Assembly (NCBI RefSeq): GCF_000378505.1
Contig: NZ_KB899997.1
Coordinates: 62,001 to 126,000 of the forward strand
Direction: 5' to 3'
From: Modicisalibacter luteus DSM 23508
Lineage (GTDB): Bacteria; Pseudomonadota; Gammaproteobacteria; Pseudomonadales; Halomonadaceae
Length of the DNA stretch: 64,000 bases
Shown: one piece after another, positions 14,362 to 61,770 of the stretch
Layout: each line of letters opens with the position of its first letter
Numbering within the stretch: position 1 is the first letter of the stretch
Translations under genes and position numbers: made by a program
Notes under the pieces: model-generated
What the model was told of the DNA's origin: nothing
The model's database searches: none
The model's input: the letters and a program-made list of their open reading frames with translations, nothing else

Positions 14362-14942
14362 TGTACACGCCTGGGCCAGTGAATCTGCTCGGCCTGAATG
14401 CCGGGCTCCATGGACAGGCCAAGGCATCATTGGGGTTCTTTCTCGGGGTAGGGCTGGCCATGTTCACCTTGTTCGTGCTGTTTGGCCTGGCTGGTGCCGC
14501 CTGGGTGCAAGGCGATATGCTCGCCGTGATAGGGGCGCTGGGATGCGGGTATATCTTTTACCTTGCCATCAAGATCGCCAAGTCGAGCATCAACATGGCG
14601 GCCGTCCGCCGAACACCGCGAGCGCTGCGCTTTCGTGACGGCCTGATCATGCAGTTATGCAATCCCAAGGGCATCGTCGCGACACTGCCGATCGCGACGA
14701 TTCAGTTTCCTGCCGTGGGGATTCATGGTGTCGGTTTGATAGTCTGGTCGCTAGGGCTGGCTGCCCTGGCAATCGGGGCTCCTGGCAGTTATGCGCTGGT
14801 TGGCGCTGTGCTAGGGAAACGCGTCGAGGATCCAGTCATTCTCAAGGGGTTCAGTCTCACTATGTCCGCCCTGTTGATTGCCGTTTCACTGTCGATCGGT
14901 TACGAACACGTTTGGCTGCCTCTCTCCGCTGGAGTAAGTTGA
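14328..14942 (+). CDS. LysE family amino acid exporter
   Basis: The 204-residue inner membrane protein has five to six helices. The LysE/RhtB signature is at the start (YALGVMYTPGPVNLLGLNAGLHGQ, about residues 6-29), and the conserved FRDGLIMQLCNPKGI stretch is near residue 104. It exports an amino acid or analogue by proton exchange. Its start overlaps the end of the araC-type gene by 34 nt, which implies translational coupling and regulation by that protein. The substrate is not deducible from sequence. Confidence 0.88.
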   Translation: MLEIIAYALGVMYTPGPVNLLGLNAGLHGQAKASLGFFLGVGLAMFTLFVLFGLAGAAWVQGDMLAVIGALGCGYIFYLAIKIAKSSINMAAVRRTPRALRFRDGLIMQLCNPKGIVATLPIATIQFPAVGIHGVGLIVWSLGLAALAIGAPGSYALVGAVLGKRVEDPVILKGFSLTMSALLIAVSLSIGYEHVWLPLSAGVS

Positions 14943-14990
14943 CGGATCGCCATCTGCCCATTGCCAATAGGTCGAGCCCTGATCCATACC

Positions 14991-15335
14991 ATGACTGACA
15001 ATTCATCGCTCCCCGTGCAGGTCCGACACGTTCTCGAGGCAGCGCCGCATGAGGCATTGCCCATGACCTATCAACAACTCGCCGAGGCAGTGGGCCTCCG
15101 TCCGCCGCGCACCATCCAGCGCGTTGCCCTGGCGCTGGAAACCCTGATGCATGAAGACGCCGCTCAAGACCGCCCCTTCATCGCCGCGCTGATCGTCAGC
15201 CGGCGAGGGGAGGGACTGCCGGCACAAGGCTTCTTCGACCTTGCGGTAACGCTGGGGCGCTTTTCCGAAGATCCGGCACAGCATGCCGAGGCCTATCGGG
15301 AAGAATTTCGGCGGGCCATGGCGCAGCGAGGTTAG
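14991..15335 (+). CDS. Hypothetical protein with an MGMT-like helical motif
   Basis: The product is about 114 residues. The segment MTYQQLAEAVGLRPPRTIQRVALALE (about residues 25-50) resembles the winged-helix part of alkyltransferases and ATL proteins (YxxLAxAxGxxxxRxVxxAL). There is no PCHRV active site, and a wider relation is unproven. The tail (QHAEAYREEFRRAMAQRG) is amphipathic. ATG 14991 is preferred to an in-frame TTG at 14961. The ribosome site is weak; the gene follows the exporter by 48 nt and may share its transcript. No function is assigned. Confidence 0.6.
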   Translation: MTDNSSLPVQVRHVLEAAPHEALPMTYQQLAEAVGLRPPRTIQRVALALETLMHEDAAQDRPFIAALIVSRRGEGLPAQGFFDLAVTLGRFSEDPAQHAEAYREEFRRAMAQRG

Positions 15336-15398
15336 TGTCAGGCGCCATGTAAGCAAACATCGCCAAGACGGTGCGATGGCTTCAGGTGGGGATGAACC

Positions 15399-15534
15399 AA
15401 GAAAAGCCCGGTCGCTTGGGCCGGGCAATCTAATGCTGCTTTCCGTGCTTCCATTACAGGCATCCTGCCCGTACATCCCTGGTGCTGAGCCATCCCTGCA
15501 CTCGGTCTTCCTTGCTTGAGCATCCTTACCCAGT
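15399..15534 (-). ncRNA. RsmY/RsmZ/CsrB-like CsrA-sequestering small RNA
   Basis: The minus strand carries seven GGA motifs within about 85 bases (the TCC positions on the plus strand are 15442, 15450, 15463, 15476, 15493, 15509 and 15523). Several are in the favoured forms AAGGA, AGGGA and CAGGA. The unit ends in a GCCCGG/CCGGGC hairpin with TTTTCTT. Upstream are a TATGAT -10 box and an 18 bp dyad close to the GacA/UvrY binding site. The predicted length of about 135 nt fits RsmY and RsmZ (roughly 120-130). Such RNAs titrate CsrA/RsmA and are switched on by the GacS/GacA (BarA/UvrY) system. The motif count and architecture are seen directly; the family assignment is inference from known members. 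Confidence 0.75.
15400..15426 (-). terminator. Terminator of the Rsm-like RNA
   Basis: A GCCCGG/CCGGGC stem (15406-15411 with 15421-15426) and a 9 nt loop are followed by TTTTCTT on the minus strand. No protein gene on this strand needs it, which supports a separate RNA gene. Confidence 0.8.
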
Positions 15535-15540
15535 AATCGC

Positions 15541-15607
15541 ATCATATAAAGAGTACTGTGCCATTGTAATAACCTATGTAACTCAAGCACGTAAGAGATT
15601 GATGACA
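15541..15607 (-). promoter_or_regulatory. Promoter and GacA/UvrY-like activator site of the Rsm-like RNA
   Basis: The -10 box TATGAT lies at 15541-15546 (minus strand). An 18 bp element at 15590-15607 reads TGTCATCAATCTCTTACG on the minus strand. It keeps the CTTAC half and spacing of the TGTAAG-N6-CTTACA consensus and is centred near -65 from the predicted start, where the site sits in known rsm genes. The -35 region is poor, as expected for an activated promoter. Confidence 0.6.
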
Positions 15608-15857
15608 AAGCGCATACGAACATAGCTTAAAACAAGCATGAAAGACTTGCTTTTGCATCTATCTTATTGATTTGCAATACATTTGATATTTGTTGCTTAG
15701 ATTTTCCTATTGCCAGTGAGTTTTTGGAGATCTTTGGTAATATGTGTAAATACAAGTTGTGAAAATGGCAGTATTCAGAGTTTTGTTAATTAATGCAGAG
15801 TAAAATAATGTAATATTGGTGCGTTCGACAGGACTCAGGACAACGATATAGCAAAGC
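15608..15857. other. AT-rich intergenic segment
   Basis: From about 15540 to 15857 the sequence is strikingly A/T-rich compared with everything around it. It contains no convincing gene. It probably holds the promoter of the response regulator on the plus strand and upstream elements of the Rsm-like RNA on the minus strand. Such A/T-rich tracts are favoured by H-NS/MvaT-type proteins. Confidence 0.5.
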
Positions 15858-16583
15858 ATGCTAAGGATGGGTAATTGCTTGAATAGTGAAAACAAGGATC
15901 GTGTATTAATCGTCGAAGACGACGAACGCCTGGCGACATTGACTCAGGAATATCTTGAGGCCAACGGCTATCGGGTCATTGTCGAAGCGGATGGCGCCCT
16001 CGCCGTGGAGCGCATCATTGAGCTGCAGCCTGGCATCGTCATTCTTGATCTGATGCTTCCCGGCGCAGACGGCCTGTCTATCTGCCGCCGCGTGAAGCCC
16101 TATTACGCCGGCCCGATTCTGATACTCACGGCACGTGCCGATGACGTGGATCAGGTGCTGGGCCTGGAGATGGGCGCCGACGACTACCTGCCGAAACCGG
16201 TACAGCCGCGAGTGTTGCTGGCCCACATGCACGCGCTCATGCGGCGCAAGGATTCGGCCGTCCGCAAGAGTAAGCCGGTTCTACTGAACTTCGGTGGGTT
16301 GATGATCAACAGAACGGTTCGCGAGGCTTGGCTCGACGGGGAGCGGATCGACCTTAGCTGTTCCGAGTTCGATCTGTTATGGCTGCTTGCCAACAATGCC
16401 GGCCGCGTGCTGACCCGTGAAGAAATATTCTCGTCGATACGCGGCACTCCCTATAACGGGCAGGATCGTGGCATAGACGTGCGCGTATCGCGTATTCGCC
16501 CCAAGATCGGAGACGATCCCAACCAGCCTCATCTTATCAAGACGGTACGTAACCGAGGGTATATGTTCGTCAAACGTGCCTGA
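15858..16583 (+). CDS. OmpR/RstA family response regulator (orphan)
   Basis: The 241-residue regulator has a receiver domain (about residues 15-128). The acidic pair is in VEDDE, the phospho-acceptor Asp in VILDLMLPGADG, Thr in ILTARA and Lys in YLPKPV. The OmpR-type winged helix follows (about 138-240, with LSCSEFDLLWLLANNAGRVLTREEI and IRPKIGDDPNQPHLIKTVRNRGYMF). Closest in layout to RstA. The usual partner kinase gene (rstB type) does not follow: a convergent SDR gene lies next. The start is uncertain between 15858 and 15867 because neither ATG has a clear ribosome site. The region upstream is AT-rich. Confidence 0.88.
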   Translation: MLRMGNCLNSENKDRVLIVEDDERLATLTQEYLEANGYRVIVEADGALAVERIIELQPGIVILDLMLPGADGLSICRRVKPYYAGPILILTARADDVDQVLGLEMGADDYLPKPVQPRVLLAHMHALMRRKDSAVRKSKPVLLNFGGLMINRTVREAWLDGERIDLSCSEFDLLWLLANNAGRVLTREEIFSSIRGTPYNGQDRGIDVRVSRIRPKIGDDPNQPHLIKTVRNRGYMFVKRA

Positions 16584-57409: not shown

Positions 57410-57728
57410 GGCGTGTTCCCCAGGGTCGGATGGAAGCTGCGGCCACCGTGGTCTCCTCTTGTTGTATGTCGGAGTTGCCACTGGCGGGGCTCTGCGATGG
57501 CCGCCCCGGTGCGGCTAGCGCTCACAGGTACGCTTACCTCACCTTTGCCAAGCATAGCAAGGCTTGGCCCTGCTCAAGGTCAAGATGCAAAAAATCGGCA
57601 AACGCTCAAATAAAACATGCGTTGAACTCATCCATTCGTCGGGGCATGTTGGTTCATTACGATGAGATATCGTAAGTGTTTGAGCGCCAGCTGGGCTTGC
57701 TCAGTACGGGTTGAAGACAGGGGGATGG

Positions 57729-60050
57729 ATGTCGGGGTTTTTTGGGCGTTTCAACCCAGCAACGCTTTTTGCCAAAAGTCAGGAGCAGTTGCCTATCGTT
57801 CGTCGCGAACAAGTAAAGATGCTCTATGAGAGCTTCTGGCAACCGATGTTCGCCAGCATCGCATGTGCGTTGCTGCTGGTTTTCTTGATGTGGCCGGTCA
57901 TTCCGCATGGCGTCCTGATCGGCTGGCTGTCGGCGATGTTAGGGGTCATGCTGCTGCGTCTTGTGCTGGTAATGAAGTTTCATCGCCGTGTTGCCAGCGT
58001 TCAGTCGAAGCATTACTGGTTAGGCTGGTTCGCCGTGGGCGCCTTTGCCGCCGGCGTGACCTGGGGGGCGGCTGGCACATTCTTGTTCTTTGCGGACCAC
58101 TACGAGTACCAGGCAGCACTATCTGTCGTTATGGCGGGTATTGGAGCTGGAGCGGTGGCCACACTATCGTCGGTGTGGGGTGTTGCTGCCCTGTTCTTGA
58201 TACCAGCCATCTTGCCATTGTTGCTGCAGTACCTGTTCATGGGTACACCGGTATCACTCTTCCTCTCGATCATGATGACGCTGTTTCTCGCACTGACTCT
58301 GGTCGTCAGCCGCCGTTTGAGCTTATTGATTACGGACAATGTCCGATTACGCGTCGAAGGGAGCGAACGGGAAAGCATCTTGCGTGAGAGCCGAAGCCGC
58401 TACCGCAGCATCTTTCACTCTGCCCCGCTGGGAATCCTGCATTTCAATGGCGATGGCAGAGTACTCGACTGCAACGACAAGTTCCTCGACATCATCGGTG
58501 GGCGCCGGGGAGGAGTGATAGGGCTGGATTTATGTCGCGATCTGGCCGACGACAACGTGATGAACGCTGTGACCAGCGCTCTGCGCGAGGGCAGTGGCTA
58601 CTACGAGGGCGATTACGTCAGCCTCCATTCGGGACGGATGATTCCGTTACGTGGCTTCTTCAACGGGATTCGTGACGGCAACGGTGAGATTACCAGTGGC
58701 GTGGCGGTCATCGAGGACTTTACAGAGCGTAAGCGGGCTGAGGAGACCATCCATCACCAGGCCTACTACGATCCGCTGACCAACCTGCCTAACCGCCGCT
58801 TCCTGCTCGATCGACTCGGTACCGCCTATCGCGCTTACCAGCAGAGCGGTGAGCGCGGTGTCGTGCTGTTTCTCGATCTGGATCGCTTCAAGGCGGTCAA
58901 TGACACGCTGGGCCATGCCATGGGGGATCGGTTGCTACGCGAGGTGGCGCAGCGCCTGACAGGCCTGCTCCGTCAGGGCGATGTGGCGGCGCGTCTCAGT
59001 GGTGATGAGTTCGTGGTGCTGGTTACCGGTCTGCCTGCCTGTGTCGATCGTGCGAACCAGGCGGCCATGGCGCTGGCGCGACGATTCTTGAATGCGCTTT
59101 CGACTCCTTACGAGTTGGCTGGCCGAACGCTGCGCGTGACGCCGAGTATCGGTATGGCGTTGTTTCCCGAAGGATCGAAGGATGCCGATGACCTGCTCAA
59201 GCATGCGGATACCGCAATGTATCAGGCCAAGACCCAAGGACGCTCCCGCGTTTGCTGTTATCAACCAAGCATGCAGCTCGAGGTGGAGCGTCGCCTGGCG
59301 CTGGAGAGCGACTTGCGCCGAGCCATTGAACAGAATCGGCTGAGTCTTCACTACCAGCCTCAAGTGGATGCCGAGGGCGGGATTGTCGGTGTCGAGGCAT
59401 TGTTGCGTTGGAATCACGAGACCCGAGGCGGAGTATCGCCAGCGGAATTCATCCCCTTGGCGGAGGAAAGTGGGCTGATCATCGAACTGGGCGAGTGGGT
59501 CCTGCGAGAGGCCTGCCAATGCCTGCAACGCTTGGACGCCGATCGTCTGCCCCGGTTATCCATCAATGTCAGTCCACGCCATTTCAGCGAGCCCGATTTC
59601 GTGGCCTGTATCGAGCGGGCGGTGTCCGGCGCGCGGATCGCGCCTGAGCGATTGATGCTCGAACTGACCGAAGGGGTTCTCATCGATCATTTGCAGGATG
59701 CCGTGAACAAGATGCAGGAACTCAAGCGAATCGGCGTTGGCCTGGCCATCGATGATTTCGGAGTCGGCTATTCATCTCTGTCGTATCTCAGACGCCTGCC
59801 ACTCGATGAACTCAAGATCGACCGCAGTTTCGTTCAGGATCTGGACGATACCAACGATGCGGCCATCGTCCAGACGATTATCGCCATCTCCCAGCATCTC
59901 GCGCTGGACGTGGTGGCCGAGGGGGTGGAAACGGATCAGCAACTGACCTTATTGATCGCCAGTGGCTGTTCGCGATTCCAGGGATACTACTTCCATCGAC
60001 CGATGTCATTATCTGCGCTAGGCGAGGTATTGCTCGCGCCGCATTGCTAG
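57729..60050 (+). CDS. Membrane GGDEF-EAL c-di-GMP enzyme with PAS domain
   Basis: The 773-residue signalling protein has five to six N-terminal helices (about residues 45-200), a PAS domain (about 222-340), a GGDEF domain (about 345-505; the motif reads SGDEF near 424), and an EAL domain (about 520-770; EALLRW near 555, with LELTEG, IDDFGVGYSS and LKIDRSF all present). The EAL active site looks complete, so phosphodiesterase activity is likely. The SGDEF variant may still make c-di-GMP or may bind GTP to control the EAL part. ATG 57729 with AGGGGG upstream is preferred over an earlier TTG. Confidence 0.92.
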   Translation: MSGFFGRFNPATLFAKSQEQLPIVRREQVKMLYESFWQPMFASIACALLLVFLMWPVIPHGVLIGWLSAMLGVMLLRLVLVMKFHRRVASVQSKHYWLGWFAVGAFAAGVTWGAAGTFLFFADHYEYQAALSVVMAGIGAGAVATLSSVWGVAALFLIPAILPLLLQYLFMGTPVSLFLSIMMTLFLALTLVVSRRLSLLITDNVRLRVEGSERESILRESRSRYRSIFHSAPLGILHFNGDGRVLDCNDKFLDIIGGRRGGVIGLDLCRDLADDNVMNAVTSALREGSGYYEGDYVSLHSGRMIPLRGFFNGIRDGNGEITSGVAVIEDFTERKRAEETIHHQAYYDPLTNLPNRRFLLDRLGTAYRAYQQSGERGVVLFLDLDRFKAVNDTLGHAMGDRLLREVAQRLTGLLRQGDVAARLSGDEFVVLVTGLPACVDRANQAAMALARRFLNALSTPYELAGRTLRVTPSIGMALFPEGSKDADDLLKHADTAMYQAKTQGRSRVCCYQPSMQLEVERRLALESDLRRAIEQNRLSLHYQPQVDAEGGIVGVEALLRWNHETRGGVSPAEFIPLAEESGLIIELGEWVLREACQCLQRLDADRLPRLSINVSPRHFSEPDFVACIERAVSGARIAPERLMLELTEGVLIDHLQDAVNKMQELKRIGVGLAIDDFGVGYSSLSYLRRLPLDELKIDRSFVQDLDDTNDAAIVQTIIAISQHLALDVVAEGVETDQQLTLLIASGCSRFQGYYFHRPMSLSALGEVLLAPHC

Positions 60051-60872: not shown

Positions 60873-61044
60873 GGATCGCTCCGACATGTAGTGATAAGGC
60901 CGTGGAGCCCGTTTCGACGCTACGATAGCGTCCATGACCGCCGTGTGCTATCGATTCGGTGGCTATTGGGAGCTGTGCGGCATTTCAAAACGTTCCTCGG
61001 TATTGCGGGGAAGAGAGATTCAATGATTCATGAAGGAGAGATGC

Positions 61045-61770
61045 ATGCGCATCGGTCTGCTGCAGTGCGATGATGTTGCCGAAGAGCTTCAGCCCCGGCA
61101 CGGTAACTATCCCGATATGTTCGAGCGGCTGCTGAGTTCGGTCGACTCCTCGTTGACCTTTCAAACCTGGCGTTGCCATGACGGCGAGATCCCCACCGAT
61201 ACCGGAGCGGTGGATGCCTGGCTGATCACCGGATCCAAATTCGGGGTCAACGACGGAAGTGACTGGATCGAGGCACTCTGCAGTTTCGTACGTGAGCTTT
61301 GGCAAGCCGGCCGGCCACTGGTGGGGGTTTGCTTTGGGCATCAACTGATTGCCAGGGCGTTAGGCGGTGAGGTGGTCAAGAACGAGCGTGGCTGGGGCGT
61401 GGGCATGTCGTTCAATCGCGTGACGGAGCGTACCGCCTGGATGGAGCCCTGGCAGGAAGGACTCGACCTGGTGGTCAGTCATCAGGATCAGGTCAGGCAG
61501 TTGCCGGATCAGGCGAAAATCCTCGCCGTGAGCGACTTTTGCCCGATCTATCTGATGCAGGTCGGCGAGACGTTCCTGGGCATACAAGGTCATCCCGAGT
61601 TCACCAAGGCGTATTCGGCCGACCTGATGGAGCACAAGCGCGACGCCTTGCCCAGCAATCGCTTGCGCGAAGGGCTGATTTCGCTCGATGCACCAGTGGA
61701 TGATCAGGTAATGGTGCGCTGGATGCTTAACTTCTTTAGGCAGGAGTTGAGTCGGCCGGCAGCGTCATAA
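61045..61770 (+). CDS. Class I glutamine amidotransferase
   Basis: The 241-residue protein is a stand-alone triad-type amidotransferase: nucleophile Cys in VGVCFGHQLIARALGG (about residue 95), and the His and Glu in LGIQGHPEFTKAY (about residue 184). AAGGAG lies just before ATG 61045. It resembles the GMP synthase glutaminase-like or YfeJ-type family rather than a subunit of a known synthetase, and no partner gene lies nearby. The acceptor molecule is unknown. Confidence 0.85.
   Translation: MRIGLLQCDDVAEELQPRHGNYPDMFERLLSSVDSSLTFQTWRCHDGEIPTDTGAVDAWLITGSKFGVNDGSDWIEALCSFVRELWQAGRPLVGVCFGHQLIARALGGEVVKNERGWGVGMSFNRVTERTAWMEPWQEGLDLVVSHQDQVRQLPDQAKILAVSDFCPIYLMQVGETFLGIQGHPEFTKAYSADLMEHKRDALPSNRLREGLISLDAPVDDQVMVRWMLNFFRQELSRPAAS

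Follow-up and report, generated by a model that had tools for sequence, protein, structure and literature searches.

The 64,000-nucleotide (nt) stretch of the Modicisalibacter luteus DSM 23508 genome analysed in this study (the window) raises the question of whether an unannotated segment of its minus strand, at 15398..15536, encodes a regulatory small RNA, and if so of what kind. An earlier note on this DNA had proposed a single RNA gene of the RsmY/RsmZ/CsrB type. In the present analysis, a CsrA-sponge small RNA gene was predicted at this place from a match to a covariance model (R1), six close paralogues and a syntenic copy in the congener G001. The RNA gene stood up, being syntenic and conserved; it did not stand alone, being one of approximately 20 copies. 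Very probably, the product is a trans-acting RNA of approximately 139 nt that works like RsmX/Y/Z, encoded by one of approximately 20 sponge genes that act on three CsrA paralogues. A sponge of the RsmX/Y/Z/CsrB type fits because GGA motifs lie in loops, the locus is syntenic, GacA-like boxes are enriched upstream of the family, and csrA, gacA and barA/gacS-like genes are present in the genome. The functional kind named in the earlier note was retained on these grounds, and the Rfam family was not, the window copy scoring 10.1 bits against the RsmY model with a gathering score of 57. We infer from the sequence that this RNA is transcribed, activated by GacA and bound by CsrA, and that it affects the phenotype.

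The predicted transcript is approximately 135-139 nt long and starts at approximately 15534 on the minus strand. Against R1 it scored 124 bits (E 1.7e-38), the window sequence itself being among those on which R1 was trained. Seven GGA motifs lie on the minus strand, at 15525, 15511, 15495, 15478, 15465, 15452 and 15444; they span 84 bases from first to last, and five of the seven have the form AAGGA, AGGGA or CAGGA, in agreement with the seven motifs in about 85 bases reported earlier. The intrinsic terminator (15398..15426, minus strand), previously recognized as a GC hairpin with a T-rich tail, consists of the hairpin GCCCGG-CCCAAGCGA-CCGGGC at 15426-15406 followed by TTTTCTTG. Likewise, the -10 box TATGAT was located by a motif scan at 15541..15546, as had been noted, and the 18-bp element placed about 65 bases upstream was found at 15590..15607 (both minus strand). 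This GacA/UvrY-box-like element, TGTCATCAATCTCTTACG, is centred approximately 64 bases upstream of the predicted RNA start and agrees with 9 of the 12 specified positions of TGTAAGN6CTTACA, which we take to be the GacA-box consensus. In addition, a second inverted-repeat promoter element, TTACATAGGTTA (15570..15581, minus strand), which is one mismatch from TAACN4GTTA, lies downstream of the GacA-like box at a spacing of 8 bp.

Covariation supported three hairpins with GGA in the loop, all on the minus strand: H1 (15517..15532, loop with AGGA), supported by folding and covariation, and H2 (15487..15503) and H3 (15455..15473, UACGGGC-AGGAU-GCCUGUA), both supported by covariation and GGA conservation. 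The underlying alignment, A1, was made with MAFFT from 20 RNAs, 19 of them distinct, and the pairs of H1 were set by eye from its sequences before R1 was built. A five-helix structure had 93.4% of cells paired in A1, compared with 26-45% for slid controls, a comparison that favours the structure because it was partly read from the same sequences. Changes on both sides were found in 13 of the 28 pairs in A1, whose values were reached by none of 500 shuffles, and in 27 of 28 in an alignment of 79 RNAs that was fitted to the model and leans towards it. RNAalifold placed H1 wrongly on A1 because MAFFT aligns its variable loop poorly. Across the 79 sequences, GGA was conserved and unpaired in the consensus at six sites, each kept in 65-78 sequences (H1 loop 73, linker 68, H2 loop 70, linker 78, H3 loop 75 and a small fourth loop 65). 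The anticipated conservation of the motifs in relatives was thus observed, and so was their position in the loops of a conserved consensus. This alternation of loops and linkers is what a CsrA sponge needs.

The conservation extends beyond the RNA itself. In the window, the flanking synteny markers are a convergent small ORF (open reading frame) at 14961..15335 on the plus strand, which is kept in G001, and a divergent OmpR/RstA-like response regulator gene at 15858..16583 on the plus strand (225 bits, under the RstA cut-off of 330). The syntenic copy in G001 (L011) is flanked by the same genes, a CbiX-type gene with the small ORF to one side and the OmpR/RstA-like regulator to the other, the regulator protein being 80% identical and encoded approximately 1.5 kb from the orthologous RNA. 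The synteny is not exact: approximately 1.6 kb of the window, with AraC-type and LysE-like genes, had no match in L011, and in G001 a phospholipase-D/cardiolipin-synthase-like ORF, named by eye, lies between the RNA and the regulator.

At the DNA level, a blastn search of the M. luteus genome (4.53 Mb in 42 contigs, completeness estimated at 100%) returned seven copies including the window, the other six being 73-79% identical over the matched part. Such matches were found in 7 of 38 genomes (M. luteus included), all of the same genus, and a pattern scan of contigs gave five stretches in Halomonas sp. McH1-25, Halomonas sp. EAR18 and Modicisalibacter xianhensis. Two covariance models, R1 and R2, reached further. 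Both were trained partly on M. luteus, which supplied 7 of the 20 R1 sequences and 17 of the 79 R2 sequences, so comparisons between genomes favour it; the R2 training set also includes 17 sequences from other genera of Halomonadaceae. At E<=0.001, R1 matched 12 of 14 genomes of the genus (M. luteus included), with 21 matches at 20 places in M. luteus and 16 matches in G001, which stands outside the 121-genome family samples. At E<=1e-6, R1 matched 58 of the 121 family genomes (M. luteus included) and R2 matched 64. At the same threshold, M. luteus was the sole match among 274 genomes of the class (0 of 273 others), in a shallower control that would miss weak copies because at most 11 candidates were scored per genome; M. 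luteus itself gave 11 matches there.

Copy number was highest in M. luteus in the genus R1 scan and in both 121-genome scans. R2 gave it 19 matches, of which two share a single long gene, and gave 15 to the next genome, G009; R1 and R2 agreed on the top two genomes. Place-by-place reading gave 20 predicted sponge genes with 158 GGA motifs in total. Seventeen are solid, with R1 scores of at least 41 bits, and three weaker, longer genes (C5:254069, C20:29116 and C1:101873; 22-30 bits) were accepted by eye on their GGA arrays and terminator hairpins, the script terminator of the C20 gene being weak. Terminators were detected by script in 18 of the 20 genes; predicted lengths range from 128 to 224 nt, with one gene of 266 nt, and the ends of the longer genes were set by eye. 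Several copies are paired, 0.6-3.5 kb apart. The three longer RNAs (L098, L096 and L097 for C5, C20 and C1) carry 6-13 GGA motifs, and none has a visible GacA box; those at C20 and C1 are alike and may form a separate CsrB-like subfamily. Elsewhere in the family, several sponge-RNA matches are clustered within 0.4-3 kb (L074, G009:C30:5246-8342; L080, G011:C35:29222-29641), which suggests growth by local duplication.

Promoter architecture was compared over 51 upstream regions, namely those of 17 genes of M. luteus (the three weakest omitted) and of 34 matches in six congeners; the 13 relatives that A1 already contained were omitted, as were some weak or overlapping matches. Exact copies of TGTN9CTTACA stood in 15 regions, against a shuffle mean of 0.02, and allowing one mismatch raised this to 26 (shuffle mean 1.0); for TAACN4GTTA the corresponding counts were 21 (0.10) and 35 (2.9). 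The latter element lies between the box and the -10; counted from the model start, 28 of the 35 stand at -44 to -46. Its spacing from the box is most often 8 bp and is 30-31 bp in four copies. Both elements were within one mismatch in 20 of the 51 regions, and in 10 TAACN4GTTA was present with a box at three or more mismatches. In other genera of the family, 16 copies, counted without a shuffle control, gave 5 exact TAACN4GTTA elements and 11 with at most one mismatch, 6 of the 11 having a box at three or more mismatches. Because TAACN4GTTA adjoins a poor -35, these data suggest that a protein recognizing it directly activates transcription. No description of the element was found in a largely open-access literature, the Pseudomonas rsm promoters being outside the comparison.

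Within M. luteus, TGTN9CTTACA occurred with at most one mismatch in 12 of the 17 genes and with at most two at -72 in a thirteenth (C32:6698-6963); a two-mismatch box at -72 of C1:416263 was excluded from the count, and a clear GacA box was missing in 7-8 of the 20 predicted genes. The extended pattern TSTN5ATCTCTTACR had six exact sites in the genome, all just upstream of family members, the window copy included; this pattern was written after viewing these promoters, so that only the absence of other exact sites is independent evidence. With one mismatch, it had 21 sites against 9 for a reversed control. Perfect TGTAAGN6CTTACA boxes numbered four, three of them upstream of members at about -90 and not -72. 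Box matches were rejected as stand-alone evidence, since those with at most two mismatches numbered 55 against 67 for a reversed control. The remaining perfect box (L083, G000:C1:196348-196365) had no GGA-rich RNA visible on either side and possibly marks another GacA target. The boxes at C14:17418, C1:394317, C2:387151 and C12:21769 adjoin no clear sponge RNA, and a GGA-rich stretch after C7:66618 was rejected as a family member for want of family-like structure by eye.

The partners of such an RNA were recovered in the genome. The GacA gene scored above its NCBIfam cut-off (290.4 versus 280) and has uvrC downstream, the E. coli arrangement; the UvrC piece, of 219 aa, scored 264, where 285 is the cut-off for the full-length protein. 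The best BarA match had 35% identity over residues 144-902 of 918 (410 bits), the kinase being assigned by best match only. Three csrA genes were above cut-off. Moreover, one sponge gene whose GacA box is perfect (C12:20918-21070; L065 1119-1271) is divergent from a csrA paralogue, which is followed by a second csrA, and this divergent RNA-csrA pair recurs in G001 (L155 2340-2485), where csrA was recognized by eye.

Several results weigh against a functional sponge RNA in the window. The search for RsmY, RsmZ and CsrB proposed earlier gave no match at gathering score, and no Rfam family reached that score in the window or among the 20 loci scanned. Two further GGA columns of the 79-RNA alignment (13/79 and 21/79) fall in paired positions. 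The minimum free energy (MFE) of the window copy, -44.8 kcal/mol, shows no extra stability relative to shuffles (z -0.75); the best fold that retains the consensus pairs lies 8 kcal/mol above the MFE, one GGA (RNA position 26) is mainly paired in the unconstrained ensemble, and the GacA-like box is imperfect (9/12). Single-sequence folding was uninformative or mildly contrary and was rejected as evidence. The imperfect box and the favoured alternative MFE fold, together with G-U pairs in H1, are compatible with a degenerate, silent duplicate, the family being real and this copy no longer expressed or bound; such a fate is unlikely, as the -10 box, both promoter elements, all six conserved GGA sites and the terminator are present, each promoter element differs by at most one mismatch from the form scored across the 51 upstream regions, and a syntenic copy is kept in G001.

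A DNA repeat or structured element that is dispersed in the genome and has no CsrA-related function, with GGA kept through recent copying, would account for the many copies and for those paired 0.6-3.5 kb apart. This explanation is less probable still: the close copies are just 73-79% identical to the window, yet GGA is kept and the stems compensate, and the promoter motifs stand upstream at mostly fixed spacing, with script terminators in 18 of 20 genes. Finally, that the segment is part of a protein-coding ORF is scarcely credible: a minus-strand frame (15003-15623, 206 aa) does stay open across the RNA, but it is partly antisense to ORF 14961-15335, which is kept in G001, and relatives carry indels that are not multiples of three as well as compensatory stem changes.

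Motif counts are weak evidence for a sponge RNA by themselves, because chance scans and simulations give similar numbers; conservation decides. Of all 85-nt windows on both strands of the 64 kb, a fraction of 3e-5 holds at least seven GGA motifs; these mark just two places, the RNA gene and the interior of a 246-aa ORF (61030-61770). Given this equal density, GGA density was rejected as stand-alone evidence. At least seven GGA per 138-nt window were found at 11 places in the 64-kb window, and such a count is not rare for the dinucleotide make-up of the transcript, 10% of first-order Markov simulations reaching it. Furthermore, promoter and terminator scans of 14900-16000 gave one site each, with approximately one expected by chance.

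The best sub-threshold Rfam matches to RNAs of this family were RsmY (RF00195) and PrrB/RsmZ (RF00166), both of clan CL00106. RsmY reached 25 bits (L021) against 57 and RsmZ 21 against 44, and sub-threshold matches to the two lay on the RNA in 5 of the 20 loci scanned (E 0.05-0.96). The present family resembles them in length (models of 121 and 133 positions) and in having several GGA motifs in loops and linkers. RsmY and RsmZ end in an intrinsic terminator and have a GacA-type box upstream, and the present family has both. It differs in its second promoter element, in its larger number of copies and in its range, matches at E<=1e-6 having been seen only in Halomonadaceae. Since no Rfam gathering score was reached, the sequences define a predicted RNA family that is separate from RsmX/Y/Z/CsrB and of the same functional kind. 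Multiple copies are a shared feature, with 8-9 sponge genes in Azotobacter vinelandii and 7 in P. syringae according to the available excerpts (PMC7366521, PMC8988225), compared with approximately 20 predicted here. E. coli CsrB/CsrC are likewise described in the excerpts as sequestering CsrA through several sites under BarA-UvrY control (PMC5027483, PMC7366521). No Rfam CsrB/CsrC match was among the matches listed for the window or the 20 loci, and length (128-224 nt, one gene of 266 nt) also sets the predicted genes apart from CsrB/CsrC.

As a sponge, the RNA would expose its GGA motifs alternately in hairpin loops and single-stranded linkers, where CsrA dimers would bind and be drawn off their mRNA targets. 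With approximately 20 genes, many promoters, each under its own control, would thus add their outputs into one sponge-RNA pool that acts on the three CsrA paralogues. There is an even chance that the approximately 20 genes and 158 GGA motifs form the largest known sponge set, in which many promoters pair a GacA box with TAACN4GTTA as the site of another activator, the copies make up a many-input adder, each relaying a different signal to a shared CsrA pool, copies with TAACN4GTTA only escape GacA, and one copy stands back to back with csrA. By analogy with known Csr biology, the RNA may act on the motile/sessile switch.

The mechanism is known; what appears to be new is the RNA family, together with its copy number and the TAACN4GTTA promoter element. 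In the available part of a 2020 review table (PMC7366521), Halomonas anticariensis has GacS-GacA and its sponge RNAs are given as 'Unknown'. A 2026 preprint modelling CsrA targets in Halomonas hydrothermalis, as excerpted, defers sponge RNAs to later work (PMC12889724), and the excerpts of PMC12889724 and PMC13414033 mention Halomonas in contexts other than its sponge RNAs; no title or abstract opening on Rsm RNAs of Halomonas relatives was among the matches listed. The present family is a strong candidate to fill this gap. A genome with approximately 20 sponges is also a natural test of why sponges multiply (dosage, signal integration or the matching of several CsrA proteins), and TAACN4GTTA offers a concrete handle on a putative co-regulator.

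Two proposed associates of the RNA fared differently. A Pfam scan of 10 window ORFs, the only search made for flhDC, did not find it. The enzyme of cyclic di-GMP metabolism (c-di-GMP) that had been placed nearby is presumably a PAS-GGDEF-EAL protein at 57711-60050 of the window, which is present and lies approximately 42 kb from the RNA. Lastly, a near-perfect GacA box (L087, G000:C12:21769-21786) was observed between two tandem csrA genes.
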